A DNA stretch of 34,421 nucleotides, taken from assembly GCA_018970165.1 (NCBI GenBank), contig JAGWWZ010000040.1:1-34421 (forward strand), read 5' to 3'. This DNA is from Planctomycetota bacterium. Its GTDB lineage: Bacteria; Planctomycetota; Planctomycetia; Pirellulales; Pirellulaceae. The position numbers were made by a program, and so were the translations under genes. The notes under the pieces are model-generated. The model was not told where the DNA came from. It saw only the letters and a program-made list of their open reading frames with translations, and ran no database searches. Shown piece by piece: positions 8,278 through 32,085 of the stretch; the stretch's first letter is position 1, and each line of letters begins with the position of its first letter.

Positions 8278-8295
8278 CAACCCTAACCTCGATCG

Positions 8296-8329
8296 GCGGT
8301 AGCCATGGGAGGATTCCTCTGGCTGCCGC
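8296..8329 (+). terminator. Long hairpin after the DUF1559 gene
   Basis: Arms GCGGTAGCCA (8296-8305) and TGGCTGCCGC (8320-8329) pair with one G-U pair; inside them GAGGA/TCCTC (8309-8319) extends the stem. It begins 18 bases after the stop codon and is followed by TCTTCCTC, a poor U-run. Placement and stability suggest a transcript end or 3' protective structure. Confidence 0.5.
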
Positions 8330-8380
8330 TCTTCCTCGTATACCTTTGAGACAATTCTTTTCAAACCCCGGTACTCGTTT

Positions 8381-9895
8381 ATGCGATTCGTAAAGACCTT
8401 ATTGGCTGACCACGGTTCCATTCGTTTCATCGCAATTTTCTTGGCGGGAACCAGCCTGCCGTCTCTGAGTCTCGCACAAGACTCGAAATCCAATCTACCC
8501 TCGGCATCTCTGCCGGATGTGACCAACAACGCTCCCGATCAACCACGCCCAACGCCGCTCACACGCGAGATAATGAAACAGTATTTGGAAGACTTGAAGC
8601 AACGCACTCCTCGAATCCCTTTGCCCGAAATGACGGAGGACGAGAAGAAAGCGGCATTGGAAGATCCTCGAGCTGGCACGTACGAGGGGCGTTTGCGCAA
8701 GCAGTATCTTCCGGAAAGCCCAACTTCCAGCTACCTTCCCTTTAGCGGTTACGCCCCCAACAACCGCCAATCAGCAAGCCGCATGGGACCACCAGAGCCT
8801 CTATTGACTCTCGACTACGCGTTCAAGGTACGATTGTTTTGGATCGCGGCCCGTGCAAACAACTGCCAGTATTGCTTAGGGCATCAGGAATCGAAACTTC
8901 TCGCAGCGGGAATGAGCGAGGATGACATTGCAGCCTTGGATTCCGAATGGGAATTGTTCCCCGAGAAGGAACAGGCCGCCTTCGCGCTCGCAAAGCGTTT
9001 AACACTGGAACCCCATCTGATTTGCGATGCAGATATCGATCGCTGCCGACCCTTCTACAACGATGCTCAGATCATCGAGATGATCGGTTCGATTTCTGGC
9101 AACAACGCCATCAATCGCTGGAAAGAAGGATCGGGCATCCCGCAATCGAGCAACGGCGGCGGGTTCGGCAGTCGCGACGCAGGTGCGAGCAGCACGGAAG
9201 AGCATTCTTACTTAACCGCTACCTCGAAAAAATTCGCAGCCCGCCGCAGCAAGATCGTAGCTCTGGATCCGTCAGATGCTTCGCTTATGCAGGCTTCACC
9301 CACAAAGTTTCAACGCATGCCGCTGGAATCGAAAGAGGTCGTCGCCGCGAAACTGAAAGAAGTGCAAACACGAAAGTCACGGTTGACGCTGGTTGATACG
9401 CAGCGAGCTGCTGAAGTCATGGGGGACACCATTGCCGATGGACGCGTTGAACAATGGCATCGTCTGCTGGCTCACTTTCCTGTTGCAGGAAAACGATTCG
9501 CGGATGGCATGCGGGCCGCATCCACCTCCGACATGCTCTCTCCATCTTTGCAATCTCAAATCGATTGGGTCGTTGCGAGACAGGATCGTGCGTGGTACGC
9601 GGCCTCGCTTGCGATGGATTCATTGAAGACCCACGGCATAACCGATCTACAGATCGACAATCTGGATCGAAACCTAGGCTCACCGATTCCAGGAATGGAT
9701 GATCGAGATCGAGCCCTGCTCAATGTCGCTCAAAAACTGTGCGCCTCGCCGATTGTGCTGACCGACAAGGAAGTCGCCGATGCCGTCAAGTTGGCCGGTC
9801 CAAAAGCAGTGACTCAAACCATCAACTACGCTGCTTACCGAGCCGCATTTAACCGCATCGCCGAAGCTGCTGGACTGGGTAGGCAAGATGATTAG
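8381..9895 (+). CDS. Secreted tandem carboxymuconolactone decarboxylase / AhpD-like protein
   Basis: 504 residues with a signal peptide (residues ~1-32, ending SLSLAQ). The first alpha-helical domain (~140-250) carries NNCQYCLGHQE with Cys162, Cys165 and His168. This is close to the AhpD redox motif (C-x-x-C-x3-H) but one residue shorter before His. The second domain (~355-490: LLAHFPVAGKRF, DWVVARQDRAWYAASLA) repeats the fold but has no Cys pair, so it is probably structural. AhpD-like proteins act as disulfide-based peroxidases or general thiol oxidoreductases; here it would work outside the cytoplasm. Its TAG overlaps the last codons of the convergent gene by four bases (9892-9895). Substrate unknown. 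Confidence 0.8.
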   Translation: MRFVKTLLADHGSIRFIAIFLAGTSLPSLSLAQDSKSNLPSASLPDVTNNAPDQPRPTPLTREIMKQYLEDLKQRTPRIPLPEMTEDEKKAALEDPRAGTYEGRLRKQYLPESPTSSYLPFSGYAPNNRQSASRMGPPEPLLTLDYAFKVRLFWIAARANNCQYCLGHQESKLLAAGMSEDDIAALDSEWELFPEKEQAAFALAKRLTLEPHLICDADIDRCRPFYNDAQIIEMIGSISGNNAINRWKEGSGIPQSSNGGGFGSRDAGASSTEEHSYLTATSKKFAARRSKIVALDPSDASLMQASPTKFQRMPLESKEVVAAKLKEVQTRKSRLTLVDTQRAAEVMGDTIADGRVEQWHRLLAHFPVAGKRFADGMRAASTSDMLSPSLQSQIDWVVARQDRAWYAASLAMDSLKTHGITDLQIDNLDRNLGSPIPGMDDRDRALLNVAQKLCASPIVLTDKEVADAVKLAGPKAVTQTINYAAYRAAFNRIAEAAGLGRQDD

Positions 9896-16094: not shown

Positions 16095-17639
16095 CTATGG
16101 TTGCGGCAGTTGGGGAAGTACCCGCTGGCGATCGCTATCTACCGGGTAAAGAGCATCGGCAGACTGGAGTTCTTCGATCATGCTTCTCATCATGCGAGAC
16201 AGTTCCTCTGGGCGAGTTTCCGCCAGATTGATCTGCTCGAAGGGGTCCGAACGCAGATGAAAAAGCTGGTAATGCGATCCCTCTGATGCGACCGATGGAA
16301 AATAATGGTAGATCACTTTCCACTCGCCATTTCGATAGCTGGTCCAGTAATCGCTACGGTGCGGCGCATGGGGATAATGCATCAGGAATGATTCGCGCCG
16401 AGCGCGATCCGGCTTGCCAACAAGAAGCGTGTCGAGTCTCGCTCCATCCACCCTGTGATCGCTCGTGATCTCCGTGCCGGTGATTCCAGCAATGGTCGGG
16501 AACAGGTCAGGAACCGATGCCAGTTGCGTCTGTATCGCATCCGCGGGAATGGGGAGTCGTTGCTGGAGGGGATTGTTTTCATCTCGTTTTCCCCAGGCTG
16601 CGATAAACGGTACGCGAACGCCTCCTTCGTAATGCGACCCCTTCTTTCCTCGCAGCGGTGCGGCGCATGCGACCGCATGTTCATGGCCCAGCGGCGCATC
16701 GGAGCCATTGTCGCCGACAAACAATATTAAAGTACTCTCAGCGACACCCAAGGCTTCCAGATGATCAAGCAGGTCGCCGAGCGATTTGTCCATCCCCTCG
16801 ATCAATGTTGCGAAAGCTTGGGCTGCCGGTGGCTTGCCCGAATCCTTGTAATGCGCCGCGAAGCGAGGATCGGAGTTGAAGGGCGAATGGACGGCGTAGT
16901 GGGCGAAGTACAAGAAGAAGGGCTGCTTGGTTTCGACCGCATCGGTTAGTTGCGATTTCGCTTCGAGGGTCAGTGCCTCGGTGAGAAACGTTTCGGTGCC
17001 ATGGTACTTGTCGAGTCCCGGCACAGCCGCGGGTGAACGCTCCTTCGTTTCACCTCCTGCATTGCCATAGTTTCGTTCGCCGTAATACGTGGCTGGGGCT
17101 CCGATCGATGCACCGCCGATGTTGACATCGAAGCCGATGTTCCGTGGGTCCGCACCGTCGGAATCGCGAGGACCAAAGTGCCCCTTGCCGACATGAATCG
17201 TCCGATAGCCATTGGACTTCAGCAGTTTCGGTAAGCTGACATCGCTGGGCCCAAGCCCTCGCCAATTCCAGTCCGGTGGCCCCATGGCGCCACCATTGTT
17301 CTTGTCGGGAGCGATCCAATTGGTCGTACGATGCCTCGCCGCATTCTGGCCAGTCATGATCGCGATGCGAGTCGGCGAGCAGACACTCATCGCATTGAAT
17401 TGGCTGAAGCGAATTCCTTGACGAGCCAATCGCTCCATATTCGGAGTTCTGTAAAAATCGTTCAGGGGATACCTTCGAGGTCTACCAGATTCGTCGGCGA
17501 GACAAGGAAGGGACGTGTCCATCACTCCCATATCGTCGACTAACATCAAGATGATGTTCGGCTTGCTTTTCTCTGCGGTGTGCGCTACAGGAACAACGAC
17601 GCAGACTATGGTGAATATTAGCGGAACAAAGCGATTCAC
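16095..17639 (-). CDS. Secreted sulfatase (arylsulfatase family, S1)
   Basis: 514 residues with a signal peptide (~1-22, VPLIFTIVCVVVPVAHTA). KPNIILMLVDDMG supplies the two metal-binding Asp residues (35-36). MSVCSPTRIAIMTG at ~84-97 is the sulfatase signature in which Cys87 becomes formylglycine; the C-x-P-x-R pattern is complete. Later metal ligands are in VGDNGSD, and KGSHYEGGVRVPF is typical of the C-terminal part of this family. It removes sulfate esters, probably from algal or other polysaccharides, a trait of marine and freshwater planctomycetes; the exact substrate is unknown. The start is GTG 17639, since the frame upstream has no ATG before a stop. It follows the next upstream gene by only 20 bases. 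Confidence 0.92.
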   Translation of the reverse strand: MNRFVPLIFTIVCVVVPVAHTAEKSKPNIILMLVDDMGVMDTSLPCLADESGRPRRYPLNDFYRTPNMERLARQGIRFSQFNAMSVCSPTRIAIMTGQNAARHRTTNWIAPDKNNGGAMGPPDWNWRGLGPSDVSLPKLLKSNGYRTIHVGKGHFGPRDSDGADPRNIGFDVNIGGASIGAPATYYGERNYGNAGGETKERSPAAVPGLDKYHGTETFLTEALTLEAKSQLTDAVETKQPFFLYFAHYAVHSPFNSDPRFAAHYKDSGKPPAAQAFATLIEGMDKSLGDLLDHLEALGVAESTLILFVGDNGSDAPLGHEHAVACAAPLRGKKGSHYEGGVRVPFIAAWGKRDENNPLQQRLPIPADAIQTQLASVPDLFPTIAGITGTEITSDHRVDGARLDTLLVGKPDRARRESFLMHYPHAPHRSDYWTSYRNGEWKVIYHYFPSVASEGSHYQLFHLRSDPFEQINLAETRPEELSRMMRSMIEELQSADALYPVDSDRQRVLPQLPQP

Positions 17640-19221: not shown

Positions 19222-20880
19222 TTAAGGGCTCTGGAAATCGAGGACTTGTCCAGCTTCCATCAAGAGCGGCTTGAGTGAATCGTAGGGTATATCCTGTACG
19301 GATCGTTCGCTTCGAATACCGATCGATGCCGCAATCGCGGAACTCTGTCCCAAAACCATGAAGACCGGTTCCATGCGAATGCTGCCGTAAGCGATATGAC
19401 TGGCGGAGAGACAGACGGGAACCAAGAGATTCGTACATTGCTTTCGCGGCGGGCAAATGCTTCGGTAAGCGATAGGATAGGGTTTCGTCGGGATCTGAAC
19501 GTCTCCTTCGTTTCTCACAAAGCCGTCATCTGTGACATGGCGCTGCGTGTTGTGGCTGTCCATGTTGTAGGCCCCCATGCCGATACTGTCCTCGACCACC
19601 TCGCGTCGCAGGCAGTTCTTCTCGCTCATCACATATTCCCCGATCATGCGCCGCGCTTCGCGAACATACATCTGCGGCGGCCATCCGCCGGTCTCACGAA
19701 ACTCGTCTGCGGCCAAACCGTTCTTCTGAAAGATCTGACGGATCGCTTCAGGAACACGCGGATGGTTTGCCAAACTCCACATAAGTCCCATCTGGTAGCG
19801 TTCATGTTCGCGCCAAATAGCGGCTCGTTCTGCGTACGAGCCATCCGGGTAGCGATAATTCATGCCGATGAAATCGGTGCTGAAGGCGAAATTGTTGTTC
19901 ACATCGGTTTTGCGATTGGGCATATAAATCGGCGCCCATGGCACTCGCATATCCCCCGCTTCAAAATTCCGGAACAGCAACTCAAAGTCCCTTTCGTCGT
20001 AGTTTTCCGGCTTGGGCCAAGGCAAACGATTCTCGGGTACATCGGTCGTGCACATACGGAAGTTGTAGGCTTGAATGCGATGATCGCCGTCTCCATCGAT
20101 TCCCTCCGGCTTGGCCGTCACGAAAGGAAGCAATCCGCTTTTTGGATTACCTCGTTCCAGGAAGGGATCGACCTGCTTGGTGAATTGGTGATGAATGGTC
20201 TTGGCTCGTTGCAAGCCATTGATGGTTTCTCCGTAAGTCGCATTGGCTTCTCTGCCTACGTGATAGCTGACCCCAGCGGTCGCCATCAAGTCTCCTTCAT
20301 AAGTCGCATCGATGAACATCTTGGCCACAAAGGTCTTGCCGCTCTCCATGCGGACTCGCTCGATACGGGTTCCGGACTTGATCACACCTTGGGCGCGATC
20401 GAGGCGTTCATTCATCAGCAGCACCACTTGGGACTCGGACAGCCAGGCTCGGAACACTTCGCTCGCGATATGCGGTTCAAAGGTCCACATCGAATCTTCG
20501 TTCTCTTTATTGAACGTTTTGCCTCGGAAGTAGTCCTCGCGTGTTTCACGGGACCACCGATCGGGATTTCGGTAGACGCGATGGATCCGTTGATAGAACT
20601 CGCGAGCCATGCCGCCGATCGCTCGCTTGTTGCCGATATCGGTCGCGCCGAGCCCCCCAGTCGTCAATCCCCCGAGATGCCCAGAGGGTTCAATCAATAC
20701 GACGGAATATCCACGTTTGGATGCCGCGATCGCTGCCACGATGCCGCCGCTGGTTCCTCCATAAACGACGATATCGTATTGAGTATCCTCTGCATGTGAC
20801 CTTGAGGTCGTTGAGACACTCACCAGAATCAACCAAGCAACACTCCACCAAGCAACACTCAGGAAGCTCCGCGCGAACAT
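19222..20880 (-). CDS. Secreted FAD-dependent oxidoreductase
   Basis: 552 residues. A signal peptide (SVAWWSVAWLILVSVSTT, to ~30) is followed by YDIVVYGGTSGGIVAAIAAS, a Rossmann dinucleotide-binding motif, and then VVLIEPSGHLGGLTTGGLG, which together define the FAD-dependent oxidoreductase group pfam12831. CPPRKQCTNLLVPVCLSAS and MEPVFMVLGQSSAIAAS near the C-terminus are the second FAD-contact region. The signal indicates export, and many planctomycetes carry several such secreted FAD proteins, perhaps acting on sugars or xenobiotics; substrate unknown. ATG 20880 has GAGG seven bases before it; TTG 20904 is not used. It is 8 bases downstream of the PqiA-like gene and closes the prpB operon. 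Confidence 0.85.
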   Translation of the reverse strand: MFARSFLSVAWWSVAWLILVSVSTTSRSHAEDTQYDIVVYGGTSGGIVAAIAASKRGYSVVLIEPSGHLGGLTTGGLGATDIGNKRAIGGMAREFYQRIHRVYRNPDRWSRETREDYFRGKTFNKENEDSMWTFEPHIASEVFRAWLSESQVVLLMNERLDRAQGVIKSGTRIERVRMESGKTFVAKMFIDATYEGDLMATAGVSYHVGREANATYGETINGLQRAKTIHHQFTKQVDPFLERGNPKSGLLPFVTAKPEGIDGDGDHRIQAYNFRMCTTDVPENRLPWPKPENYDERDFELLFRNFEAGDMRVPWAPIYMPNRKTDVNNNFAFSTDFIGMNYRYPDGSYAERAAIWREHERYQMGLMWSLANHPRVPEAIRQIFQKNGLAADEFRETGGWPPQMYVREARRMIGEYVMSEKNCLRREVVEDSIGMGAYNMDSHNTQRHVTDDGFVRNEGDVQIPTKPYPIAYRSICPPRKQCTNLLVPVCLSASHIAYGSIRMEPVFMVLGQSSAIAASIGIRSERSVQDIPYDSLKPLLMEAGQVLDFQSP

Positions 20881-20888
20881 AAATTTCC

Positions 20889-21512
20889 TCACTCTTCCGC
20901 CCAAATCGAATGGGGATCAAAACTCATCGATGCGATCATGCTCATGACAACACAGGCGCTGAAGGCGACGACGGCAGGTCCCACATGGAACTCAACAAGC
21001 CCCGACAGTTTGACGAGCATGACAAGGAACGCGAGGAGCATCACATCCATCATGCTCCATCGCCCGGAAAACTCGATCACGCGGTACGCCCACGCCCGGT
21101 GGTGATGCTCGAGGTATCGAAACCAACACAACTCGAGCAGCGTCACCAACTTGATCACTGGCAAAACAATCGAGAAAAGGAGAATGACTGTAGCGATGAA
21201 CCAACTGCCGCTATGAAATAATTCGATGATGCCGCTCAGCAGACTACTGGCATACCGATATCCCAGCCGTTCGATTTCGAGGATCGGCAGAGTGATCGCA
21301 ACCGGAAACAGCAATAGGGCTCCCATCGCTGCGGCTGCGGTCCTTTGGGAACTGAGATCTTTTCCATGACCTCGATCGACCACCATGCCGCAGCGCGGGC
21401 AACGCGATACTTGATCTTCGCCATGTTCGACCACCCGCTGGATCAATCCGCAACATGGGCATGCCTTGAGTCGCCCAGCATCGTCATTCGGGAGCGAAGG
21501 CGGAGCACTCAT
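20889..21512 (-). CDS. PqiA-like membrane protein with zinc ribbon
   Basis: 207 residues, one PqiA domain (E. coli PqiA has two and is twice this length). A cytoplasmic zinc ribbon uses CPCC (18-21) and CPRC (38-41). Four membrane segments follow: ALLLFPVAITLPILEIE, the WFIATVILLFSIVLPVIKLV hairpin, MDVMLLAFLVMLVKLSGLV and AVVAFSACVVMSMIAS. PqiA partners the MCE protein PqiB in lipid transport between membranes; here no MCE protein is next to it, so the role is unclear. ATG 21512 overlaps the stop of the enoyl-CoA hydratase gene (ATGA), which fixes the start; the frame is open far upstream but that part overlaps the previous gene. Confidence 0.85.
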   Translation of the reverse strand: MSAPPSLPNDDAGRLKACPCCGLIQRVVEHGEDQVSRCPRCGMVVDRGHGKDLSSQRTAAAAMGALLLFPVAITLPILEIERLGYRYASSLLSGIIELFHSGSWFIATVILLFSIVLPVIKLVTLLELCWFRYLEHHHRAWAYRVIEFSGRWSMMDVMLLAFLVMLVKLSGLVEFHVGPAVVAFSACVVMSMIASMSFDPHSIWAEE

Positions 21513-22414
21513 GAGGATGACGCAGGCTTGCGCGGCGCGAAACGTTGCAAACCTTGTTGTACATCCGGTTGCGAGAGAAGACTGTAAAACAGTTCTCGCT
21601 CGCATCGACAGCCAGCCGCGAATCCCTGCTCCAAACCGACGGTGATTGCCTTTGCAATCGTCTCTCGAGATCGCAGTGTCATCGCAGGTACGGAATCGCT
21701 CGATGAGTCGATCGACGCGGGATTCGAGGCGATGTCCTTCCATTGCTGAACGCGATCGACCGAGGGCGAGGGCTCGCTGGTGCGCACGCCTGGATGCGAT
21801 AAGACGCGCTGTACGAAACTGGTCAAGCAATCCTCTTCGAGGTTGGCATCCCATAATCCGTCGACCAGCCCGATTTCGAGTGCTTTTTGGCTGGAGATCG
21901 AATCGCCGAGCGCCAGCATGCGCCATCCCTCAGCTAGACCGACCCATCGGGGCAATCGCTGTGTTCCACCCCAGCCTGGAAGTAACCCGAGTTTGCATTC
22001 GGGCATCCCCAAGACAGTGTCGTTATCGCTGCATGCGAATCGGTATTGACAAGCCATCGCCCACTCGAGTCCGCCACCGAGGCTTGCGCCGCGAATCCAG
22101 GCGATCGTTGGAAAGGAAACATCCTCCCATGCTTGATAGACATCCTGGCCCCGTTTCAGGAACGCTTGTATCTGGGCATCGTTTTCCACGGCGAGGATTT
22201 CTTTGATGTCGGCTCCAACAATGTTGCCTCGCGCCTTCGCACTGCGCACGACCACCGGCTTCGTGTTATTCGCTCCGCATAGTTCGCGCGTCACTTCGTC
22301 GAGTTCCTGAAAGACCTCGCTCGACATCACGTTCAGAGAACGGTTTTCCACGTCAACCCACAAGTTGATCCAAGTGGGGTTCGAGGAATCGAGTCTTAAA
22401 TGGCGGAGGTTCAT
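21509..22414 (-). CDS. Enoyl-CoA hydratase/isomerase family protein
   Basis: 301 residues, crotonase fold. The oxyanion hole is formed by NIVGADIKE (~64-72) and RGASLGGGLEWAMAC (~108-122). Both catalytic Glu residues of true hydratases are in place: Glu117 (GGGLEWA) and Glu139 (GMPECKLG), followed by LLPGWGGTQRLPR. It should hydrate a trans-2-enoyl-CoA; an HMG- or isohexenylglutaconyl-CoA-type substrate is possible in this context but not shown. The C-terminal third is longer than in FadB-type single-domain enzymes and includes a Ser-rich stretch. ATG 22414 overlaps the prpC stop (ATGA); the TTG at 22438 is not preferred. Confidence 0.88.
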   Translation of the reverse strand: MNLRHLRLDSSNPTWINLWVDVENRSLNVMSSEVFQELDEVTRELCGANNTKPVVVRSAKARGNIVGADIKEILAVENDAQIQAFLKRGQDVYQAWEDVSFPTIAWIRGASLGGGLEWAMACQYRFACSDNDTVLGMPECKLGLLPGWGGTQRLPRWVGLAEGWRMLALGDSISSQKALEIGLVDGLWDANLEEDCLTSFVQRVLSHPGVRTSEPSPSVDRVQQWKDIASNPASIDSSSDSVPAMTLRSRETIAKAITVGLEQGFAAGCRCERELFYSLLSQPDVQQGLQRFAPRKPASSS

Positions 22415-23562
22415 GATCGCGATTCGAGTGGTTGCCAAGGTCGAGGCTCGGGCCCGACATACTCCGCCAAGGGACGGATCAATCGGTTATTGGCTCGCTG
22501 CTCGAGGATATGAGCGGACCAACCGGAGACTCGGGACAGGACGAAGATCGGCGTGAACATCGGGGTCGGGATGCCGAGGCTGCGGTACATGGAAGCGCTG
22601 TAGAAATCGAGATTGGGAAACATCTTCTTTTCCCGGCGCATGACCGCTTCAATCCGCTCTGAGATGTCGTATAGAAGCATGAGATCGGTCGCTTCGCAGA
22701 GCTTGCGTGCCCAGACCTGGATGATGTCGGATCTCGGATCGCACGATTTATAGACGCGATGCCCAAAGCCCATGATCTTTTCTTTTTTGGCAAGCATCTC
22801 GAGCAATCGGGCCTCGGCGTAATCGGGATCCCGCATGGAATCGATCAGTTCCATCGCCGCCTCGTTGGCCCCGCCGTGAAGTGGCCCTCGCAAGGCTCCG
22901 ATGGCTGCGGTGATGGCCGAATAGAAATCAGACAGCGTCGAAGCAACGACGCGGGCGGTAAATGTCGATGCATTCCATTCATGTTCGGCGTAAAGAATCA
23001 GCGACACATCCATCGCTCGAACATGCAACGCTTCGGGCGGTCGACCGTGGAGCAACCATAGGAATTGCTCGGCGATCGAATCTCCGCCGATGGTCGGATC
23101 GATCCGTTGGCCGCTTTGATGAAAGCGATACCAATAGAGCAGAACCCCCGGCATGATCCCGAGCAATCGCTCGCTGACGTGCAAGGCTTCTTGTGGACTC
23201 TTCTCCGGTTCGAGCGTCCCGAGCATCGAAGTCGCGGTTCGAAGTACATCCATCGGATGGGCGCTGCTCGGGATCCGTTCGAGGACCTGGCACAATTCAG
23301 GCGGGATGCCACGGTGGGCTACGATTCGATCGCGGAACGCCTTGAGTTGCGGTTGCGTAGGCAATTGGCCATAGAGCAGCAGATAAGCGACTTCTTCAAA
23401 AGTCGCATGCTCCGCAAGGTCTTCGATCGAGTAACCCAAATACGTTAGTCCGACGCCAGTAATACCGACGGTGCTCAATCGGGTTTCTCCCGCGAGAACG
23501 CCATCGAGGCCCGCTCGCAGCGTTGCTGTACCGGTGGCAGGGCGGTTGGATACGTGGCTCAT
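22411..23562 (-). CDS. prpC: 2-methylcitrate synthase / citrate synthase
   Basis: 383 residues, the short citrate synthase type. It condenses propionyl-CoA (or acetyl-CoA) with oxaloacetate. It opens with RAGLDGVLAGETRLSTVG, which is the PrpC/methylcitrate form. Active-site parts are visible: AEHEWNASTF (His), GPLHGGANEAAM (His), MGFGHRVYKSCDPR, and NLDFYSASMY (Asp). Because the adjacent gene is a methylisocitrate lyase and prpD is divergent, methylcitrate is the likely product; the sequence alone does not exclude citrate. Its ATG overlaps the stop of prpB (23559-23562), and its stop overlaps the hydratase start. Confidence 0.93.
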   Translation of the reverse strand: MSHVSNRPATGTATLRAGLDGVLAGETRLSTVGITGVGLTYLGYSIEDLAEHATFEEVAYLLLYGQLPTQPQLKAFRDRIVAHRGIPPELCQVLERIPSSAHPMDVLRTATSMLGTLEPEKSPQEALHVSERLLGIMPGVLLYWYRFHQSGQRIDPTIGGDSIAEQFLWLLHGRPPEALHVRAMDVSLILYAEHEWNASTFTARVVASTLSDFYSAITAAIGALRGPLHGGANEAAMELIDSMRDPDYAEARLLEMLAKKEKIMGFGHRVYKSCDPRSDIIQVWARKLCEATDLMLLYDISERIEAVMRREKKMFPNLDFYSASMYRSLGIPTPMFTPIFVLSRVSGWSAHILEQRANNRLIRPLAEYVGPEPRPWQPLESRS

Positions 23563-24434
23563 GTTCGTTTCTTCTCCGAATCGATGCGTTGTTCCGCTTC
23601 GTAGTAATGCAGCAGTTGATAAAGCTCCTCGCGCGTCTGCAGACTGCCGAGGATCGATGCTTGGTTGCCATCGCGACGAATCGCTTGATATGCCATGCTG
23701 GCCGCACGATTCATCGCGCGAAAAGCCGTCAATGGATAGAGCGCCATACGAACACCGGTTTGCCCGAGATCCGATAGCGACAAGGTCGGCGTTTTGCCGA
23801 ACTCGGTCAGGTTAGCCAAAATCGGGACCGGCACGCGCGATGCGAATTCGCGATATTGACCGAGACTGGTGAGGGCTTCCGCGAAGATCATGTCGGCACC
23901 GGCGGCGACATAGGCATTGGCCCGTGCGATGGCAGCTTCTAAACCTTCGACGGCTGCGGCATCGGTGCGGGCCATGATCGCAAACGCGGGATCTTGTCTA
24001 GCCCCCACGGCTGCTTGAACGCGAGCAACCATCTCTCCAGTATCCACAAGCTCCTTGCCCGGTCGATGGCCGCAACGTTTGGCCGAAACCTGGTCCTCCA
24101 TGTGGACGGCCGCAACCCCAATCCGTTCCAGTTCGAAGATCGTGCGGCGAATGGTTTCCGATGTCCCCCAGCCGGTGTCGATATCGACCAGCAGAGGCAG
24201 TCGGCATGCAGCCGTGATACGGCGGGCATCCTCGACGACATCATCCAGATGCGTGATTCCCAAATCGGGCAACGCATGCGAGGCGTTGGCAACTCCCGCC
24301 CCGGACAAATAGATCGCTCGAAAACCGGCTTGCTCGGCCAGCAACGCGCAAAGTGGATGAATCGCACCCACGATCTGCAGCGGACGTTCCTCTTCGAGCG
24401 CTAGACGAAATCGTTGGCCGGGTGAATCAGGCAT
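23559..24434 (-). CDS. prpB: Methylisocitrate lyase
   Basis: 291 residues, PEP mutase / isocitrate lyase superfamily. It splits 2-methylisocitrate into pyruvate and succinate. Motifs: IYLSGAGVANASH, DIDTGWG (metal-binding Asp), VHMEDQVSAKRCGHRPGK with the catalytic Cys in KRCGH (~119-123), FAIMARTDA and MIFAEAL. KRCGH and the ~290-residue length fit PrpB and not the longer AceA. It is the first gene of a five-gene overlapping operon on this strand and is divergent from prpD. Confidence 0.95.
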   Translation of the reverse strand: MPDSPGQRFRLALEEERPLQIVGAIHPLCALLAEQAGFRAIYLSGAGVANASHALPDLGITHLDDVVEDARRITAACRLPLLVDIDTGWGTSETIRRTIFELERIGVAAVHMEDQVSAKRCGHRPGKELVDTGEMVARVQAAVGARQDPAFAIMARTDAAAVEGLEAAIARANAYVAAGADMIFAEALTSLGQYREFASRVPVPILANLTEFGKTPTLSLSDLGQTGVRMALYPLTAFRAMNRAASMAYQAIRRDGNQASILGSLQTREELYQLLHYYEAEQRIDSEKKRT

Positions 24435-24793
24435 CTCGAGGGTTTTCAGTGCGAGAACAAATGGAATTCGGTATGCCGGTCGACGACTTCGGTGCAGTTA
24501 CTTGTTAAGGAGCATGCACTGCGAGTTGCCGCGCGATCATGGGAGCGACTCGCGGCCGATACGGTACGACGCGAGGATGCGAGTTTGACGCTAAGGAAGA
24601 GACAGAGTGTATCAAATTCCGCCCCAGTTTTCCAAGGAGGCCTCACAGACCGCCCTTAATTCGCTACATTAGGACTTGATCCCAAAACATGAGCCGCATT
24701 GGCGTTAGCCGTGGTTTTCTAGGTTTTGGGATAGGCTTTTCGAACGCGCAATTGTTTGGTGAGTATTCTTTCTTCGATCCGATCCTTCATCCT
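24435..24793. promoter_or_regulatory. Divergent control region between prpB and prpD
   Basis: 359 bases with no supported gene. Toward prpD, TTGACG (24585-24590), 17 bases and TGTATC (24608-24613) are a weak promoter candidate. An imperfect dyad, GTGCA (near 24491) and TGCAC (near 24513) around TTACTTGTTAAGGAG, and GTCGAC near 24480 could bind a regulator. If prpD starts at ATG 24689, the region shortens to 254 bases. No regulator gene (PrpR or GntR) is adjacent. Confidence 0.35.
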
Positions 24794-26299
24794 ATGGGTT
24801 CCAACCACGATTTCTCTTCCGCGGCGGCTCCGCGACCGTTTGATTCCGTCATCGCGAGCATTGCGGAATATGCGTCCAATGCCGATTGGAAACCGAGTGC
24901 CGAAGCGGTGGAAACCGCTCGCTATGCGTTGCTCGATAGCCTTGGATGCGGGCTTCTGGCACTCGAGTATCCGGCCTGCACCAAGTTGCTTGGGCCGTCT
25001 GTCCCGGGAGCGACCCTCGTCAACGGCTCGCGTGTCCCGGGAACCGGATGGGAACTCGATCCTGTTCAAGGTGCATTCAATATCGGTGCGATGGTTCGTT
25101 GGCTTGATTTCAACGACACGTGGCTCGCCGCAGAGTGGGGGCACCCCTCCGACAACTTCGGTGCGATTCTCGCGATCGCGGATTACCTCGATCGATCCGG
25201 GAGTAACCCGTGGGGAGCACCAAGCCAGTGGACCGTGGAGCAAGTGCTTCACGCGGCGATCCAGGCTTATGAAATCCAAGGTGTGTTGGCGCTGACCAAC
25301 GGTTTTAACCGCGTTGGCCTGGACCATGTTTTGTTGGTCAGGATCGCATCGACTGCGATCGCTTGTGCGATGCTCGGAGGGAATCGGCAAAAAATCGCGA
25401 ATGCGGTATCGCATGCATGGATCGATGGGGGCGCGTTGCGAACCTATCGCCATGCACCCAATACCGGTTCTCGCAAGAGTTGGGCCGCAGGGGATGCGAC
25501 GCGTCGCGCGGTGCAGTTGGCTCTATGGACCATGACTGGCGAGATGGGATATCCGACTGCACTGACTGCCGAACGTTGGGGGTTCCAGGATGTACTGATG
25601 CACGGCAAGCCGATCCAACTGTCTCAGATGTTCGGTTGCTATACGATGGAGAACATTCTGTTCAAGGTGGCTTATCCCGCCGAGTTCCACGCACAGACCG
25701 CTGCCGAAGCTGCAATTGCACTTCATCCCCAAGTGCGAGATCGACTCGATGCGATCGAAACAATTCGGATCCATACTCAAGAGTCGGCTGTCCGCATCAT
25801 CGATAAAACCGGACCGTTGAATAACCCTGCGGACCGCGACCACTGTATCCAATACATCGTGGCAGTATCGCTGATCCAGGGAGATCTCAAAGCCGAGCAT
25901 TACGAAGGGGAATTTGCGACCGATCCTCGCATCGATGCGTTGCGGGATAAAATGCAAGTGATCGAGGACACACGCTTTACCCAGGAATACCTCGCTCCGG
26001 ACAAACGATCGATCGGCAATCGGATCGAGATCTTGTTCCGCGATGGTACTCGCACCGATGCGGTCGAAGTCGAGTTTCCGATCGGGCATCGGCGTCGACG
26101 CGAAGAAGCGTTTCCGCTGCTGATCGATAAATTCCTCGCCAGTGCGAAGTGTCGACTGTCGAGGGATCATGTCGATCGCATCATGGATCGATGGAGCGAT
26201 CCGAATCGCATGCTGAAAATGCGCATTTCCGAATGGATGGAGTTGTTTGTCGTTCCTGATCATCGTCCGTGCTGGTCGCACGGCAAAAACAAAGGCTAG
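24794..26299 (+). CDS. prpD: 2-methylcitrate dehydratase (MmgE/PrpD family)
   Basis: 501 residues from ATG 24794. The family dehydrates 2-methylcitrate to 2-methyl-cis-aconitate without an iron-sulfur cluster. Family motifs are [80 protein letters not shown] and [14 protein letters not shown], and the end has [17 protein letters not shown] 24689, 35 codons upstream, is also open, but the extra residues are unlike the family; neither start has a clear ribosome binding site. It is the first gene of the plus-strand operon; the carboxyltransferase starts three bases after the stop. Confidence 0.93.
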
Positions 26300-26302
26300 T
26301 TC

Positions 26303-27889
26303 ATGGCAACATTGCGTGAGATTACCGACGAGATACAGGGTCAAGAAGAAGTATTGCGTCAGGGGGGCGGACAATCAGGGATCGCTCGCCAGCGGAAACT
26401 GGGGCGATTGCCGGTGCGCGAACGGTTGGCTTTGCTCCTCGATCCCAACCGACCCTTCTTGGAACTGGGATTGTGGGCCGCGCATGGGATGTACTCCGAT
26501 TGGGGCGATGTGCCTGCCGCCGGAGTGATCACCGGGATCGGTTGGATCGAAGGTCGCCCCTGCGTGGTCGCAGCCAACGATGCGACGGTCAAGGCTGGCG
26601 CGATGTTCCCGCAATCGGTTAAGAAACTGATTCGCGCTCAGAAGATCGCTCATCGTTTGCGCCAGCCCTTGGTTTATCTCGTCGACTCCGCAGGAGTGTT
26701 CCTGCCTTTGCAGGATGAGATATTCCCCGACGAAGACGACTTTGGACGCATCTTCCGCAACAACTCGATTCTCTCGGCCGAAGGGATACCGCAAATTGCC
26801 GCCGTGATGGGGAACTGCATCGCAGGCGGCGCATATCTACCCGTACTGTGCGACAAAATTCTGATGACCGAAGGAAGCCAGTTGTGCTTGGCAGGGCCAG
26901 CACTTGTGAAAGCTGCCATCGGACAGACTGTCGATCCCGAGGAACTCGGCGGTGCGGCGATGCACTCGCAGATCAGCGGCACCGTCGACTTTCATGAGAA
27001 GAACGACGCCGACTGCATCAGCCGATTGCGCAAGCTGGTAGGATTGATGCCCAAGGGGCCATGCTCTGAACAAGGGACTGCACCGGAGCGATTGGGATCG
27101 GATCTTTACGATATCGTTCCTGGGGATGGGATGCGTGAATACGATGTGCGCGATGTCGTACGTTGCTTTGTCGATGCAGGAAGCTTCGAAGAGTTTCGTC
27201 CCGATTACGGCAAGACAGTAGTGACCGGTTATGTTCGCATTGAGGGGCGACCGGCGGCGATTGTCGCCAATCAACGCAAACGTTCGAAATCATCTCAACA
27301 AGAAGTGCAGATCGGCGGTGTCTTGTATGGCGATGCCGCTGAGAAAGCTGCCCGTTTTGTGCTGGACTGTGATCAGAATCGTATCCCTCTGATCTTCTTG
27401 CAGGATGTGCAGGGCTTCATGGTCGGTAAGCAGTCCGAGCAATCGGGGATCATTATGTCGGGTGCCCAATTGGTCCGCGCGATGAGCATCGCGACGGTAC
27501 CGAAGTTCACGGTCGTTATCGGCAGCTCCTACGGTGCTGGCAACTATGCCATGTGCGGCCGCGCATACGATCCCGCTATGATTCTTGCGTGGCCCAATGC
27601 GCGCTACGCCGTCATGGGAGGCAATCAAGCCGCCGATACTTTGCTGACGCTACGAGTGCGGGACGCTGAGAAATCGGGTAAGACGATGACGCCCGAAGAG
27701 ATTCAATCGCTTCGCGACACCATTCGCCAGCAGTATTCCGATCAAACCGACATCCGATACGGTGCGGCCCGCGGTTGGGTCGATGCGATTATCCCGCCCG
27801 ATGCGACCCGTACATGGCTTGGGGCGGCGCTGCTGCTCGCCGACTCCGCGTATCCGTCGGTATCGCCAAGCCTGGGGAGAGATGTGTGA
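26303..27889 (+). CDS. Acyl-CoA carboxylase carboxyltransferase (beta) subunit
   Basis: 528 residues, carboxyltransferase fold in two halves. The N half has RLALLLDPNRPFLELG, IGWIEGRPCVVAANDATVKAG and VMGNCIAGGAYLPVLCD; the C half has VVTGYVRIEGRPAAIVANQ, FLQDVQGFMVG, SSYGAGNYAMCGRAYDP and NARYAVMGGNQAA. These are the acyl-CoA/biotin binding motifs of methylcrotonyl-, geranyl- and propionyl-CoA carboxylase beta chains; GFMVG and GNYAMCGRAYDP are closest to the methylcrotonyl/geranyl group. The biotin carboxylase/biotin carrier subunit it needs is not in this window. It lies three bases after prpD and overlaps the AtuA-like gene (TGATG). An AtuC-like or LiuB-like role is inference. Confidence 0.9.
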   Translation: MATLREITDEIQGQEEVLRQGGGQSGIARQRKLGRLPVRERLALLLDPNRPFLELGLWAAHGMYSDWGDVPAAGVITGIGWIEGRPCVVAANDATVKAGAMFPQSVKKLIRAQKIAHRLRQPLVYLVDSAGVFLPLQDEIFPDEDDFGRIFRNNSILSAEGIPQIAAVMGNCIAGGAYLPVLCDKILMTEGSQLCLAGPALVKAAIGQTVDPEELGGAAMHSQISGTVDFHEKNDADCISRLRKLVGLMPKGPCSEQGTAPERLGSDLYDIVPGDGMREYDVRDVVRCFVDAGSFEEFRPDYGKTVVTGYVRIEGRPAAIVANQRKRSKSSQQEVQIGGVLYGDAAEKAARFVLDCDQNRIPLIFLQDVQGFMVGKQSEQSGIIMSGAQLVRAMSIATVPKFTVVIGSSYGAGNYAMCGRAYDPAMILAWPNARYAVMGGNQAADTLLTLRVRDAEKSGKTMTPEEIQSLRDTIRQQYSDQTDIRYGAARGWVDAIIPPDATRTWLGAALLLADSAYPSVSPSLGRDV

Positions 27890-29709
27890 TGCGTTCGATT
27901 CGCGTCGGGAATGCGCAGGCGTTCTGGGGCGACCGACCATCGGCCGCGCGCGAGCTGCTTACGCAAGAGCCCGAACTGGACTTCCTCACGATGGATTATC
28001 TGGCCGAGGTATCCATGTCGATCCTGGCCAAGCAACGTCAACGGGACTCCGAACGCGGATACCCGCGTGACTTCGTAGATGTGGTGCGCGATCTCGCCAG
28101 CTATTGGGCCGCGGGTGGTCGCTGTCGATTGATCGCTAATGCTGGTGGATTGAACCCTCGATCATGTGCGACGATGTGCCAGCGAGCGCTGGAAGAAGCA
28201 GGTTGCCGTGCGCTAAAGATTGCGATTGTTTATGGCGACAATGTCCTGGAGTTACTAACCGTCAACGATGGAACGTCGGGCCCGTTCTCGAATCTTGATG
28301 ATGGCCGACCGCTGAGCGATGTCCAAGACCGACTCGTGACCGCAAACGCCTACATGGGATGCGAGGGAATCGTGAAGGCCCTCGAGGCGGGTGCCGATAT
28401 CGTTATCACGGGACGCGTTGCCGATCCGTCGATGGTTGTCGGCGCATGCGCGCATGCATTCGGATGGAAGCTTGATGATTGGTATGCTCTGGCAGGTGCG
28501 ACCGTAGCCGGACACTTGCTCGAATGCGGCACTCATGTAACCGGAGGTATTGCCACCGATTGGCTGATGTTCCCAAACCATCAACATATCGGATTTCCTA
28601 TCGCTGAGATCTCCCAAGATGGATCGTGCGTCGTGACCAAAGGCCGAGGCTCGGGCGGGGCTGTCAATGAGCAAACCGTCAAGGAGCAATTGGTCTACGA
28701 GATCGGGGATCCGGCCCGCTACATCAGTCCCGATGTATGCGTATCGTTTCTCGGTTTGAAGTTGGAAACGGTCGGGAAAGACCGTGTTCGAGTCTTTGGT
28801 GCCATCGGAAGCCCATGTCCCTCAACTCTCAAAGTAAGCGCAACCTACCGTGACGGTTATCGCGCTGCGGGCATGTTGACCGTCTTTGGCCTCGACGCAG
28901 CAGCCAAGGCACGCAAGGGTGGCCAAGTCGTCTTGGGACGTTTGGCTGAAATGGGTTGGCATTATCGCGATGCGATTGTGGAGGTGCTGGGGCATGGAGA
29001 CAGCGTGCCACGCGCGGATGCAACCTCGTCACTCCCAATCATCGAAGCTGTCCTTCGCATCGCGGTGGAGTCCGAAAGCTCCGAGCCGATCGAAGCCTTT
29101 ACTCGCGAAATGATTCCACTGGTCACTGCAGGCGCGCAGGGAACCACCGGTTATGCCGATGGGCGTCCCAGTGTGCAGGAGATCTTTCGCTATTGGCCTT
29201 GTTTGATCGAGACGCGAGCGATCGAACAGCAAGTAGAAATTTGGGAGACCCGCGATACGCTGGCGAACAATCCGGAATCTGAAACAAGCAAGAGAACGAT
29301 CAAGATAAGTGCTGGTCCGTCAAAGCAAGCGGTCCATGCGGAGTCTAATGCTCCGTGCGTATCGAAATCATCATCGAGTTCGCTGGCTGGCCATCGGCTG
29401 ATATCGGTGGCTTACGGGCGGAGCGGCGACAAAGGAACCGGTGCCAACGTCGGAATCTTGGCTCGCACGGAATCAGATTACGCCAAGCTGTCGCAGTGGC
29501 TGACCGCCGAGCGAGTCCATGCGTATTTCAAGCCACTCGAAATCGAGTCGGTCGAGCGAATCGCGATCCCGAATTTGCTTGGGTTCAACTTCTTGTTGCG
29601 CGGTGTTCTGCGGCGAGGGATTCGGAACGATGCCCAGGGCAAAGCGATTGCCCAAGCGTTGCTGCTTATGCCGCTCGACGATTACCCCAGCGGGGCGGCA
29701 ACCTCTTAG
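27889..29709 (+). CDS. AtuA-family (DUF1446) protein with C-terminal AtuA-like domain
   Basis: 606 residues. The DUF1446 domain (~1-445) has NAQAFWGDRP, DFLTMDYLAEVSM, IANAGGLNP, ANAYMGCEGIVKALEAGADI, ITGRVADPS and THVTGGIATDW. After a Ser-rich linker (~455-500) comes the short AtuA-like domain with AYGRSGDKGTGANVGILAR. AtuA is encoded with geranyl-CoA carboxylase in the acyclic terpene pathway of Pseudomonas, but its reaction is not established. ATG 27889 overlaps the carboxyltransferase stop (TGATG), indicating coupling. A few residues before this start are open but overlap the previous gene. It closes the prpD operon. Confidence 0.9.
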   Translation: MRSIRVGNAQAFWGDRPSAARELLTQEPELDFLTMDYLAEVSMSILAKQRQRDSERGYPRDFVDVVRDLASYWAAGGRCRLIANAGGLNPRSCATMCQRALEEAGCRALKIAIVYGDNVLELLTVNDGTSGPFSNLDDGRPLSDVQDRLVTANAYMGCEGIVKALEAGADIVITGRVADPSMVVGACAHAFGWKLDDWYALAGATVAGHLLECGTHVTGGIATDWLMFPNHQHIGFPIAEISQDGSCVVTKGRGSGGAVNEQTVKEQLVYEIGDPARYISPDVCVSFLGLKLETVGKDRVRVFGAIGSPCPSTLKVSATYRDGYRAAGMLTVFGLDAAAKARKGGQVVLGRLAEMGWHYRDAIVEVLGHGDSVPRADATSSLPIIEAVLRIAVESESSEPIEAFTREMIPLVTAGAQGTTGYADGRPSVQEIFRYWPCLIETRAIEQQVEIWETRDTLANNPESETSKRTIKISAGPSKQAVHAESNAPCVSKSSSSSLAGHRLISVAYGRSGDKGTGANVGILARTESDYAKLSQWLTAERVHAYFKPLEIESVERIAIPNLLGFNFLLRGVLRRGIRNDAQGKAIAQALLLMPLDDYPSGAATS

Positions 29710-29872: not shown

Positions 29873-30982
29873 TTACTCGTTGCCTGCGAGCAACCGAGAG
29901 AGATTCTCGACATGCCACGATCGAAACGGAACGGCAGTCCTCGGTAGCGGATGATCGGGAACCAAGGACAGCGAAATCGCCTTCATCAATTGCTCGATGC
30001 CAGCCCCACTCACTGCACTGACCAGATACGCAATCGAAGGTATGTTGGATGGCGGAGATGATGAGTCATCCCTGTCCGACTTGGTCCGAACCAACAAACA
30101 CTTGCTCGAGTGGGATTGCCAAATCGCCTGATGCTCGTCTGTCCAACCTGCGTCGGGATCGATTAGCAACAAGAGGCGATCCGCAGTATCGATGGCGCGT
30201 CGTGCTCGCTCGATCCCGAGGCTTTCGACTTCGTGCTCGGATTCCCGAACTCCAGCACTGTCAATTAATGTAACGGGCCAACCTTCGATGCTGGTCGATT
30301 CTGCCAGGAGATCCCGAGTCGTCCCCGCCTCGGCATGCACCACTGCTCGCGAGTACCCCAAGAGCCGATTCAGTAAACTGCTCTTTCCGACATTGGGTGG
30401 GCCGCACAACACCACGCGCCACGGATGAATCAAATGCAATCCGACATCCGACCATCGCCAGATGCCATCCGCAATCCTGCGAGCTTCGGCGAGTCGTCCC
30501 TCTTTCGCATGCTTTTCGATTTGGTCCAATGCTTCATCGAGTGCGCCGCGAACTTGATCCATCAAGATACTCGCCGTGCGAACCGTGGATGCTCGAAGCA
30601 GATCCTCGGTTGCTTCAGCGGCTATTTGAGTTGATGCATGGTGTGCGATCCATTCGCTTCGTTGCCTCTCTTGGGCACCTGCGCTGACTAAAGTGCGCAA
30701 GATAGTCAACGCAGCGGCTTGACCGCCATGGCAATGCAATTCACATACTTCCGGTCCCCGTTGTACAACGACGATCGACTCTCCAATTGCAACTCGATCG
30801 TTCCTCTCCGAACGAAACATGCCGTAGCGAATTCGATTGACTTGCAACTCAGGTTTACCCTGTATGGGAGACCAATAATGTTGTACCAGTTCAATCGCCT
30901 TCGGACCTTGAATTTCGATGACTGCGATCGCAGCGGGCGCCGACGAGGTCAGTCGAGTTACCGTAGTGCGCCCATCCGTCAT
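29873..30982 (-). CDS. Shortened MnmE/TrmE-like GTPase
   Basis: 369 residues; ordinary MnmE is ~450. The G domain is complete: GPPNVGKSSLLN (G1, 194-205, including the Asn used for K+ activation), EAGTTRD (G2), DSAG (G3, usually DTAG), TKSD (G4) and SAVSGAG (G5). The N-terminal domain retains CELHCHGGQAAAL, but the folate-binding loop and the PGEFTKRAFLNGK segment are missing. The C-terminal helical domain is truncated and the final C-I-G-K motif, whose Cys is needed for U34 modification in MnmE, is absent. It may be a paralogue with another task or a lineage-specific minimal form. Its ATG overlaps the ackA stop (ATGA). Confidence 0.85.
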   Translation of the reverse strand: MTDGRTTVTRLTSSAPAAIAVIEIQGPKAIELVQHYWSPIQGKPELQVNRIRYGMFRSERNDRVAIGESIVVVQRGPEVCELHCHGGQAAALTILRTLVSAGAQERQRSEWIAHHASTQIAAEATEDLLRASTVRTASILMDQVRGALDEALDQIEKHAKEGRLAEARRIADGIWRWSDVGLHLIHPWRVVLCGPPNVGKSSLLNRLLGYSRAVVHAEAGTTRDLLAESTSIEGWPVTLIDSAGVRESEHEVESLGIERARRAIDTADRLLLLIDPDAGWTDEHQAIWQSHSSKCLLVRTKSDRDDSSSPPSNIPSIAYLVSAVSGAGIEQLMKAISLSLVPDHPLPRTAVPFRSWHVENLSRLLAGNE

Positions 30983-32085
30983 CGGTTCGCGGCCTCCGAC
31001 CTCTTCAGCAATCGAATCGCATGCCCGGCGATGACCTGTTGTTCATCGGTTGCGATTCGGAGGATTTCAAATGAACTTGACGATGTATTCAATCGTGTCT
31101 CTCCAAGATGATTTGCTTGATTGTCGATCGCTCCTCCAAGCCATTTCAGTTCAGCAACGACCTTTCGCCGCACGATCGCACTATTCTCACCGATCCCGGC
31201 AGTGAATACCAAACAATCGAGTCCTCCGATCGCGGTCGCAGCTGCAGTCACTTCTTTCGCGATCGATCGGCAAAACATGTCGATCGCAAGAGCACAGCGA
31301 GGATCCGTATCGGCCCGTTCGACGAGTGTACGCATATCGCTGGTTCCCTTCGATAAAGCCGCCAGTCCCGATTCCTTGGTGAGGATCTTCTCGATCTGCT
31401 GCGCGTTCATTCCTTCGCGCATCCAGTGGATGGCAACACCGACATCAATACGTCCGCACCGAGTGCCCATGATCAAGCCGTCGATCGGGGTTAGCCCCAT
31501 CGTGGTATAGCGACTGATGCAACGGTCCAGCCCGCACAAACTCGCGCCATTCCCGAGATGGCATACAATTGTTTTGCCTTGGGCTGCTCGCTCCGAAATC
31601 TCTGGCAATTGGGACGCGATTGATTCGTATGAGAGACCATGAAATCCATAACGCCGGATGCCAGCATGAAAGTACTGGTCGGGGATCGCGAATCGCTGTT
31701 CTACCTCGGGGAGAGTTGCATGAAACGCAGTGTCGAAACAGGCGATGCGAGGTGTGCCCGGCAGAAGCGAGCCCACTGTTCGTATAGCGGACAAGGCCGG
31801 AGGTTGGTGCAGTGGCGCTAAGTGAATCGTGCGATCGAGCGTCTCGATCACAGAGTCGGTAACAATAGCCGGAGCATTCAGTTCGTTGCCCCCATGGACT
31901 ACGCGAAATGCGATCGCGTTCCACGAAGCATCCCTCAGTAATCGGCCGATCGCGGACGGGTAATCTGCTTCGCCGCACTCGATGGTTCCTTGGCTCATGC
32001 AGTGCATGCCGTGATAGCCTGCGTGCTTGAGCGTCGAGGAACCTGCATTCAAAACGAGAGTGAAGGGATCGCGATCGGGGACCAT
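30979..32085 (-). CDS. ackA: Acetate kinase
   Basis: 368 residues, shorter than the usual ~400. It converts acetyl phosphate and ADP to acetate and ATP. Key residues are present: NAGSSTLK (Asn, 13-20), FRVVHGG (Arg), DTAFHATLP (Asp), RRYGFHG (His), HLGNGASL (His), MGTRCG (Arg), FTAGIGENS and DEQQVIAGHA near the end (Glu). The usual SGDID is CGRID, a change from Asp to Arg in the loop next to the catalytic Arg. A related short-chain acyl kinase such as propionate kinase is possible. No phosphotransacetylase gene is in the window. It overlaps the M3 peptidase stop by one base (TAATG) and the GTPase start by four. Confidence 0.92.
   Translation of the reverse strand: MVPDRDPFTLVLNAGSSTLKHAGYHGMHCMSQGTIECGEADYPSAIGRLLRDASWNAIAFRVVHGGNELNAPAIVTDSVIETLDRTIHLAPLHQPPALSAIRTVGSLLPGTPRIACFDTAFHATLPEVEQRFAIPDQYFHAGIRRYGFHGLSYESIASQLPEISERAAQGKTIVCHLGNGASLCGLDRCISRYTTMGLTPIDGLIMGTRCGRIDVGVAIHWMREGMNAQQIEKILTKESGLAALSKGTSDMRTLVERADTDPRCALAIDMFCRSIAKEVTAAATAIGGLDCLVFTAGIGENSAIVRRKVVAELKWLGGAIDNQANHLGETRLNTSSSSFEILRIATDEQQVIAGHAIRLLKRSEAANR

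Follow-up and report, generated by a model that had tools for sequence, protein, structure and literature searches.

Proteins of the AtuA family (DUF1446) are common and are named after a terpene pathway, the Atu pathway, in whose gene cluster AtuA was tentatively named an acetate lyase (PMC4847356). In E. coli, a DUF1446 gene lies beside that for methylaspartate ammonia-lyase, with the fate of citramalate left open (PMC4682846). The carboxylase beta subunits are distinguished in PMC4673880 by Phe191, preceded by three additional residues, in 3-methylcrotonyl-CoA carboxylase (MCC), and by a Gly without those three residues in geranyl-CoA carboxylase (GCC). Here we describe a window of 34,421 nt (the whole stretch of DNA analysed; contig JAGWWZ010000040.1 of the planctomycete assembly GCA_018970165.1, a genome 95.9% complete), in which genes for 2-methylcitrate dehydratase (prpD), an acyl-CoA carboxyltransferase (CT) and an AtuA protein form a cassette. 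The original prediction, which had proposed a new route for branched or isoprenoid acyl-CoA, is supported in part; the cluster is better read as an unusual leucine-type breakdown than as a new terpene pathway.

On balance, we favour the view that the cassette encodes the lower part of a pathway of the leucine/isovalerate type, in which AtuA substitutes for 3-hydroxy-3-methylglutaryl-CoA (HMG-CoA) lyase and the CT is charged by AccB/AccC. The reactions are proposed ones, set on the observed gene order, gene families, fold match and gene absences. An acyl-CoA dehydrogenase, a relative of which is encoded elsewhere in the same genome, would form 3-methylcrotonyl-CoA; the CT would use carboxybiotin, loaded by AccC onto the general carrier AccB, to turn this into 3-methylglutaconyl-CoA; and a crotonase would hydrate the product to HMG-CoA. 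AtuA, together with its fused small ferredoxin-like domain, would then cleave HMG-CoA in place of the missing lyase, yielding acetoacetyl-CoA and acetyl phosphate or acetate, and the adjoining methylcitrate genes would dispose of propionyl-CoA.

The three cassette genes constitute a single plus-strand operon, as the original prediction had described. The prpD gene ends at 26299, with the longest frame starting at 24689 and an alternative start at 24794 (763 bits to PRK09425, cut-off 575; 726 to TIGR02330, cut-off 458). Three bases separate it from the CT gene (26303-27889, plus strand; Pfam Carboxyl_trans, 453 bits), whose stop overlaps the start of the AtuA gene (27889-29709, plus strand) in the stretch TGATG at 27887-27891. 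Divergent from this operon, on the minus strand, are prpB for methylisocitrate lyase (23559-24434; NCBIfam PRK11320, 454 bits, cut-off 353), prpC for 2-methylcitrate/citrate synthase II (22411-23562; TIGR01800, 496 bits, cut-off 421; 547.5 bits to PRK12351, slightly below the cut-off of 550) and a gene for a crotonase-family hydratase (21509-22438; Pfam ECH_1, 100 bits). The family matches of all these genes (Pfam, NCBIfam) span the full length and are not chance hits, and all three enzymes of the methylcitrate cycle, prpB, prpC and prpD, are recognised at the family level.

The CT-AtuA pair extends far beyond this strain. A scan of named genomes gave 54 AtuA loci, 41 of which were counted as close (type 2, AtuA ~47-63% identical) and 13 as more distant. 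A CT lies at most 0.5 kb upstream of AtuA on the same strand in 38 of the 41 type-2 loci (37 of 40 if the locus with less than 2 kb of upstream sequence is left out), and the pair is kept across Planctomycetota, Verrucomicrobiota and Chlamydiota; the loci lacking an adjoining CT are L031, L039 (Hydrogenedentota; the upstream frame has no Pfam match) and L042. Among 35 loci of order-mates, the CT was within 0.5 kb in 16, further off in 4 and absent from the stretch in 15, some of which are cut by contig ends.

The original prediction had named a propionyl-CoA carboxylase (PCC)-type CT in a set limited to this strain as speaking against a dedicated new pathway; we found instead an MCC-like CT in the widespread pair. 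Against solved structures, the CT scored 469 bits with AccD1, 449 with Pseudomonas MCC-beta, 443 with 9tps, 356 with geranyl-CoA carboxylase and 289 with Thermotoga PCC-beta. 9tps is deposited as propionyl CoA carboxylase beta and AccD1 as acetyl-/propionyl-CoA carboxylase, and we read both as MCC-like by alignment. In a tree of 78 proteins, 58 type-2 CTs formed one clade (100/100) with the CT of Bernardetia as its sister (97/77); the neighbours of this clade were MCC- and Atu-type CTs, and four plasmid CTs, whose PCC label is our own assignment, were separated from it (100/100). These data support a grouping of the CT with MCC-type enzymes and not with PCC-beta; PCC identity was rejected on structure scores and tree position.

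The acyl pocket points in the same direction. The pocket stretch of the window CT is FPDEDDFGR, and this or FPDDDDFGR was found in all 59 type-2 CTs aligned; the assignment of Phe191 is our own, by its number in human chain 8j4z. The CT sorts with the MCC-type members of the family and has the Phe with the three extra residues that PMC4673880 gives as MCC marks; the Gly and the loss of three residues that distinguish GCC-beta were not seen in it. Because the MCC acyl-pocket signature is retained, a geranyl- or terpene-sized substrate, as envisaged in the original prediction, appears unlikely. Among seven type-1 CTs, the three residues are gone in five (L114-L118; FLPG---G or FVPG---G) and kept in L040 and L043; the CT of L117 scores 579 bits to MCC versus 492 to GCC despite its GCC-like deletion.

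All type-2 CTs share a further peculiarity, an extra loop in the C-domain that ordinary MCC lacks (residues 324-337 of the window CT; codons at 27272-27313, plus strand). Its 14 columns are filled in 59 of 59 type-2 CTs, one or two residues occupy the place in all seven type-1 CTs, and a gap of 14 residues stands there in each of the five solved relatives shown. As a guess, the loop may serve for docking of free AccB. The predicted structure of the CT has a predicted local distance difference test (pLDDT) score of 83.3. A loop-bearing CT, the sister of the type-2 clade mentioned above, is also encoded on a plasmid of Bernardetia (Bacteroidota; L130, 5902-7608), and the 13.6 kb shown of this locus contain no annotated AtuA or biotin carboxylase.

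A biotin carboxylase partner was said to be absent, and we could extend this statement: no dedicated MCC-alpha/biotin carboxylase was found near the cassette or in the 95.9% complete genome. Accordingly, neither an MCC holoenzyme, with an alpha subunit providing biotin carboxylase and carrier, nor the geranyl-CoA carboxylase pair AtuC/AtuF of the Atu pathway was recognised, the pocket also being of the MCC form. The biotin carboxylases of the genome are AccC, with an adjoining gene for the biotin carrier AccB, and one pyruvate-carboxylase-like frame; the CT of the cassette is the single large CT besides accA- and accD-like matches. A frame on contig C226 was rejected as a dedicated biotin carboxylase, as it continues into what we take, by eye, to be the C-terminal domain of a pyruvate carboxylase, cut by the contig end.

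We extended the search for biotin carboxylases to 40 genomes of a set of 41 (38 of type 2, 36 of them with the CT seen beside AtuA; their completeness is not stated), taking frames of 803-1299 residues as pyruvate carboxylases by size or by an HMGL-like domain inside. An MCC-alpha-sized frame was present in one of the 38 type-2 genomes (G133, an extra frame of 665 residues), and G143 gave no biotin carboxylase match; the type-1 genomes L040 and L043 possess a frame of 665-667 residues. In the sample of the order, three biotin carboxylases were counted in 13 of 15 type-1 genomes, and at least 11 of the 15 have one on the contig of AtuA, among the matches listed. The 35 type-2-only genomes have one (7 genomes), two (22) or three (6), and at least two of the last six carry an MCC-alpha-sized frame (G018, G083). 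The lack of the alpha subunit is a lineage trait, general but not exceptionless. Since no MCC-alpha was found, we infer that the CT is charged by AccB/AccC, and the orphan CT offers a clean case for studying how two carboxyltransferases can share a single biotin carrier.

The AtuA protein is a fusion, in a single frame, of an AtuA domain (Pfam, 482 bits) and a C-terminal AtuA_ferredoxin domain (60 bits), and is proposed to be a C-C lyase acting in place of HMG-CoA lyase. For its AlphaFold model (mean pLDDT 90.3), Foldseek gave a single match at E <= 0.001, 9evf (E 2.4e-24, probability 1.00), with template modelling scores of 0.61/0.79 (0.79 on the target) and 15% identity. This entry bears the title "Citramalate lyase - ADP - pyruvate complex", and a second one, 9erq (AtuA family protein, citramalate lyase subunit A), was matched by sequence at E 0.009 alone and at 1.3e-5 as a profile; both are known here by their PDB titles. 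AGG, GR..DP and LEC stretches align between AtuA and CmlA, and the AtuA alignment has 26 invariant columns. The window protein has the AtuA domain and, in its model, the CmlA fold. Our literature search on AtuA/DUF1446 turned up no proven reaction, though the PDB titles point to one, and PMC4847356 offers the tentative name acetate lyase; the original statement that the reaction of AtuA is not established therefore needs correcting, in that some leads to it exist. One kind of cut could serve both citramalate and HMG-CoA, because both are tertiary alcohols with a CH2-carboxylate arm, and the cut by AtuA would probably be ATP-dependent, as the homologue is titled citramalate lyase with ADP and pyruvate.

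AtuA genes are frequent (59 of 117 genomes of the order; 162 plasmid records), and some of their contexts elsewhere point to HMG-CoA. In a Bacteroidales locus (L040), genes are arranged as CT, crotonase, biotin carboxylase, AtuA and acyl-CoA dehydrogenase, and in Azospirillum as CT, crotonase, alpha subunit and HMG-CoA lyase. AtuA thus holds the HMG-CoA lyase position in an MCC operon, and a search for HMG-CoA lyase in the L040 genome gave no match. On plasmids of the haloarchaea Halalkalicoccus and Salinigranum, a gene for degradative HMG-CoA reductase (435 bits to TIGR00532, cut-off 260, in Halalkalicoccus) overlaps AtuA by 4 bases and a small gene comes next, which is AtuA_ferredoxin in the one plasmid scanned. 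In Rhodococcus gordoniae, a phosphate acyltransferase gene overlaps AtuA by 4 bases. Rubrivivax gelatinosus (L055, 1759-9135) encodes consecutively a CitMHS transporter, AtuA with a small subunit, two CoA-transferase subunits, MaoC-PTA and acetate kinase; L053 appears similar, judged by its AtuA and acetate kinase matches. The R. gordoniae and L055 contexts would fit the release of acetyl phosphate or acetate from whatever substrate, and the run in L055 is perhaps a different AtuA pathway for a citramalate-like acid. In Veillonellaceae (L049, 7297-13251), a Sigma-54 activator, AtuA, a small subunit, a class III CoA-transferase and a CitMHS transporter are consecutive, and Megasphaera (L050) has the first three genes in common.

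Genes fitting the remaining steps recur around the pair. In the 27 planctomycete loci, we counted acyl-CoA synthetase genes in 18, crotonase genes in 15 and acyl-CoA dehydrogenase genes in 9, with many contigs being short, families assigned by example and family scans covering some of the neighbours. The order dehydrogenase, CT, AtuA, small AtuA_ferredoxin and crotonase was found in five of seven chlamydial loci (L032, L034, L035, L037, L059). L012 and L060 have a relative of the window crotonase in the corresponding position, and in L010 such a relative adjoins CT-AtuA without prp genes; the window crotonase may therefore belong to the CT-AtuA pathway. The genome of the window further has, on contig C160, relatives of the planctomycete cassette crotonase (66%) and acyl-CoA dehydrogenase (81%); the dehydrogenase is truncated where the contig stops, and C301 carries another piece.

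The connection to propionyl-CoA turned out to be looser. The case for a dedicated prp-linked pathway, as originally proposed, is weak. Upstream of CT-AtuA, prpD was found at 9 of 27 planctomycete loci (7 of 23 when the upstream sequence is required to reach 3.6 kb), at none of 14 loci of other phyla and at none of 35 order-mate loci. At L012, L015, L026 and L060, prpB and prpC diverge from prpD, which is also the arrangement in the window. Genome-wide, prpD exceeds its cut-off in 25 of the 40 genomes searched. The genome of the window gave no match for methylmalonyl-CoA mutase, and a second large CT was likewise not found, so that methylcitrate is its sole visible propionyl-CoA route. Leucine breakdown yields no propionyl-CoA, and the prp genes may thus be a neighbour module, useful beside branched-acid breakdown without the cassette having to make propionyl-CoA.

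Several observations weigh against a leucine-type pathway with AtuA as the lyase. The classical HMG-CoA lyase is indeed missing from the genome of the window (best match to NF004283 47 bits, cut-off 246). Nevertheless, it is above cut-off in none of 117 genomes of the order (59 with and 58 without AtuA) and in 2 of 145 genomes of a phylum sample taken around G152, where another two reach 219 and 243 bits; this sample was scored for the lyase and not for AtuA. The lack is therefore the base rate here and by itself proves little, and we rejected it as proof of replacement. Conversely, two of 40 cassette-side genomes (Opitutales L036 and L044) have both genes, and that of L057 has a 213-bit match to the lyase. 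Identity to citramalate lyase is as low as 15%, the AccB/AccC partnership is an assumption on our part, and the AtuA family has several substrates, because other members adjoin transporters, CoA-transferases, PTA and acetate kinase. In L031 (Parachlamydiaceae), a Cache-domain histidine (sensor) kinase gene (7349-8983) takes the usual place of the CT between acyl-CoA dehydrogenase and AtuA. For the crotonase of L040, the top-scoring model, at a score below cut-off, is one of gamma-carboxygeranoyl-CoA hydratase. Natrinema has a crotonase-AtuA-small gene run near dehydrogenase, CT and E1/E2 genes that looked leucine-like, but in the tree the CT tested there sits, with a long branch, among the CTs on the PCC side; we rejected Natrinema as a clean leucine cluster, and together with the L040 crotonase its CT makes the leucine reading less clear-cut. 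For the E1/E2 genes in the vicinity of L032 and L036, pyruvate dehydrogenase models gave the highest scores, and we rejected these genes as proof of branched-chain oxidation.

Alternatively, the cassette could break down acyclic terpene or isoprenoid acyl-CoA by a geranyl-CoA-type carboxylation, with AtuA freeing acetate from 3-hydroxy-3-isohexenylglutaryl-CoA and later beta-oxidation of 2-methyl-branched pieces supplying propionyl-CoA to the methylcitrate cycle. We regard this as unlikely. The place of AtuA in the Atu cluster with its tentative acetate lyase name (PMC4847356) agrees with it, as do the planctomycete acyl-CoA synthetase genes and upstream prpD counted above; the MCC-form pocket in all 59 type-2 CTs does not. 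Moreover, order-mates possess separate CT-biotin carboxylase-AtuA clusters (L114-L118), possible Atu-type loci in the same order, and all five examined carry the GCC-like deletion (one, L117, being nearer to MCC overall). Family scans covered part of the neighbours, so that an absence of terpene genes is not established. Phytol-type breakdown was dropped after a literature search without result, the CT pocket speaking against it as well.

The prp link would find a chemical explanation if the substrate were another short branched one, e.g., 3-methylvaleryl-CoA, of which dehydrogenation, carboxylation, hydration and the AtuA cut would give 3-oxopentanoyl-CoA and hence propionyl-CoA for prpBCD. 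The prpD-CT-AtuA order in a third of the planctomycete loci (9/27), with prpB and prpC divergent in four of the loci, would suit this idea. We consider it quite unlikely, as an upstream prpD is lacking at most loci, no prpD passes the cut-off in 15 of 40 genomes (one of them, G134, has two pieces at contig ends) and no observation bears directly on the substrate. Very unlikely, in our opinion, is that the orphan CT takes no carboxybiotin from AccB at all, its loop altering the chemistry (e.g., decarboxylation or transcarboxylation) and AtuA acting on citramalate or a related acid. The rarity of MCC-alpha-sized frames (1 in 38 type-2 genomes) and the universal loop are what such a CT would predict; nevertheless, the CT stretches A174-G175-G176 and G411-A412-G413, which we take to be active-site motifs, are invariant, and the presence of dehydrogenase and crotonase genes nearby agrees with the MCC series of reactions.

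It is attractive to speculate further that AtuA proteins represent a second, unrelated kind of HMG-CoA lyase, which would convert HMG-CoA (or alkyl homologues) to acetoacetyl-CoA and acetyl phosphate in an ATP-dependent manner, and that a leucine-type pathway of Planctomycetota, Verrucomicrobiota and Chlamydiota depends on this lyase, together with a loop-modified MCC-type CT that borrows AccB/AccC. This broader proposal is possible but doubtful at present. If AtuA of this branch is truly a C-C lyase for 3-hydroxy-3-alkylglutaryl-CoA, organisms without the classical lyase would have a last step for the breakdown of leucine and of mevalonate.

AtuA was found in one (G083) of 14 other sampled genomes of the family to which the window belongs. 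In the tree, the CT of G083 falls in the other type-2 subclade and the window CT groups with that of uncultured Pirellula; a transfer or many losses would explain this pattern. As for the surroundings of the cassette, genes for an acetate kinase (30979-32085, minus strand; Pfam, 313 bits) and a TrmE-like GTPase (29873-30982, minus strand) adjoin AtuA on the opposite strand and are not conserved with the cassette. The acetate kinase was rejected as a cassette member for its strand and as the copy in the window was matched only in L053 and L055 among the 54 loci. Further along the minus strand, a FAD-dependent oxidoreductase (19222-20904) and a sulfatase (16095-17639) are without evident link to the cassette.

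Among described systems, the leucine/isovalerate utilization (Liu) pathway, with MCC and HMG-CoA lyase, resembles the cassette in its MCC-class CT and in the dehydrogenase and crotonase found near CT-AtuA in relatives; unlike that pathway, the genome of the window has AtuA, lacks MCC-alpha and contains nothing that passes the HMG-CoA lyase cut-off. The Atu pathway shares the combination of CT, AtuA, hydratase and dehydrogenase, with acetate release proposed (PMC4847356), whereas the window CT has a pocket of the MCC form and no alpha subunit. Citramalate lyase CmlA (9erq, 9evf) is like the window AtuA in fold and in the aligned stretches, a likeness drawn from model and sequence, but it differs in that the window protein is 15% identical, lies in an acyl-CoA context and has the small domain fused. 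Finally, the methylcitrate cycle is represented by complete prpB, prpC and prpD genes, although prpD shares its operon here with a CT and an AtuA, both foreign to the cycle.

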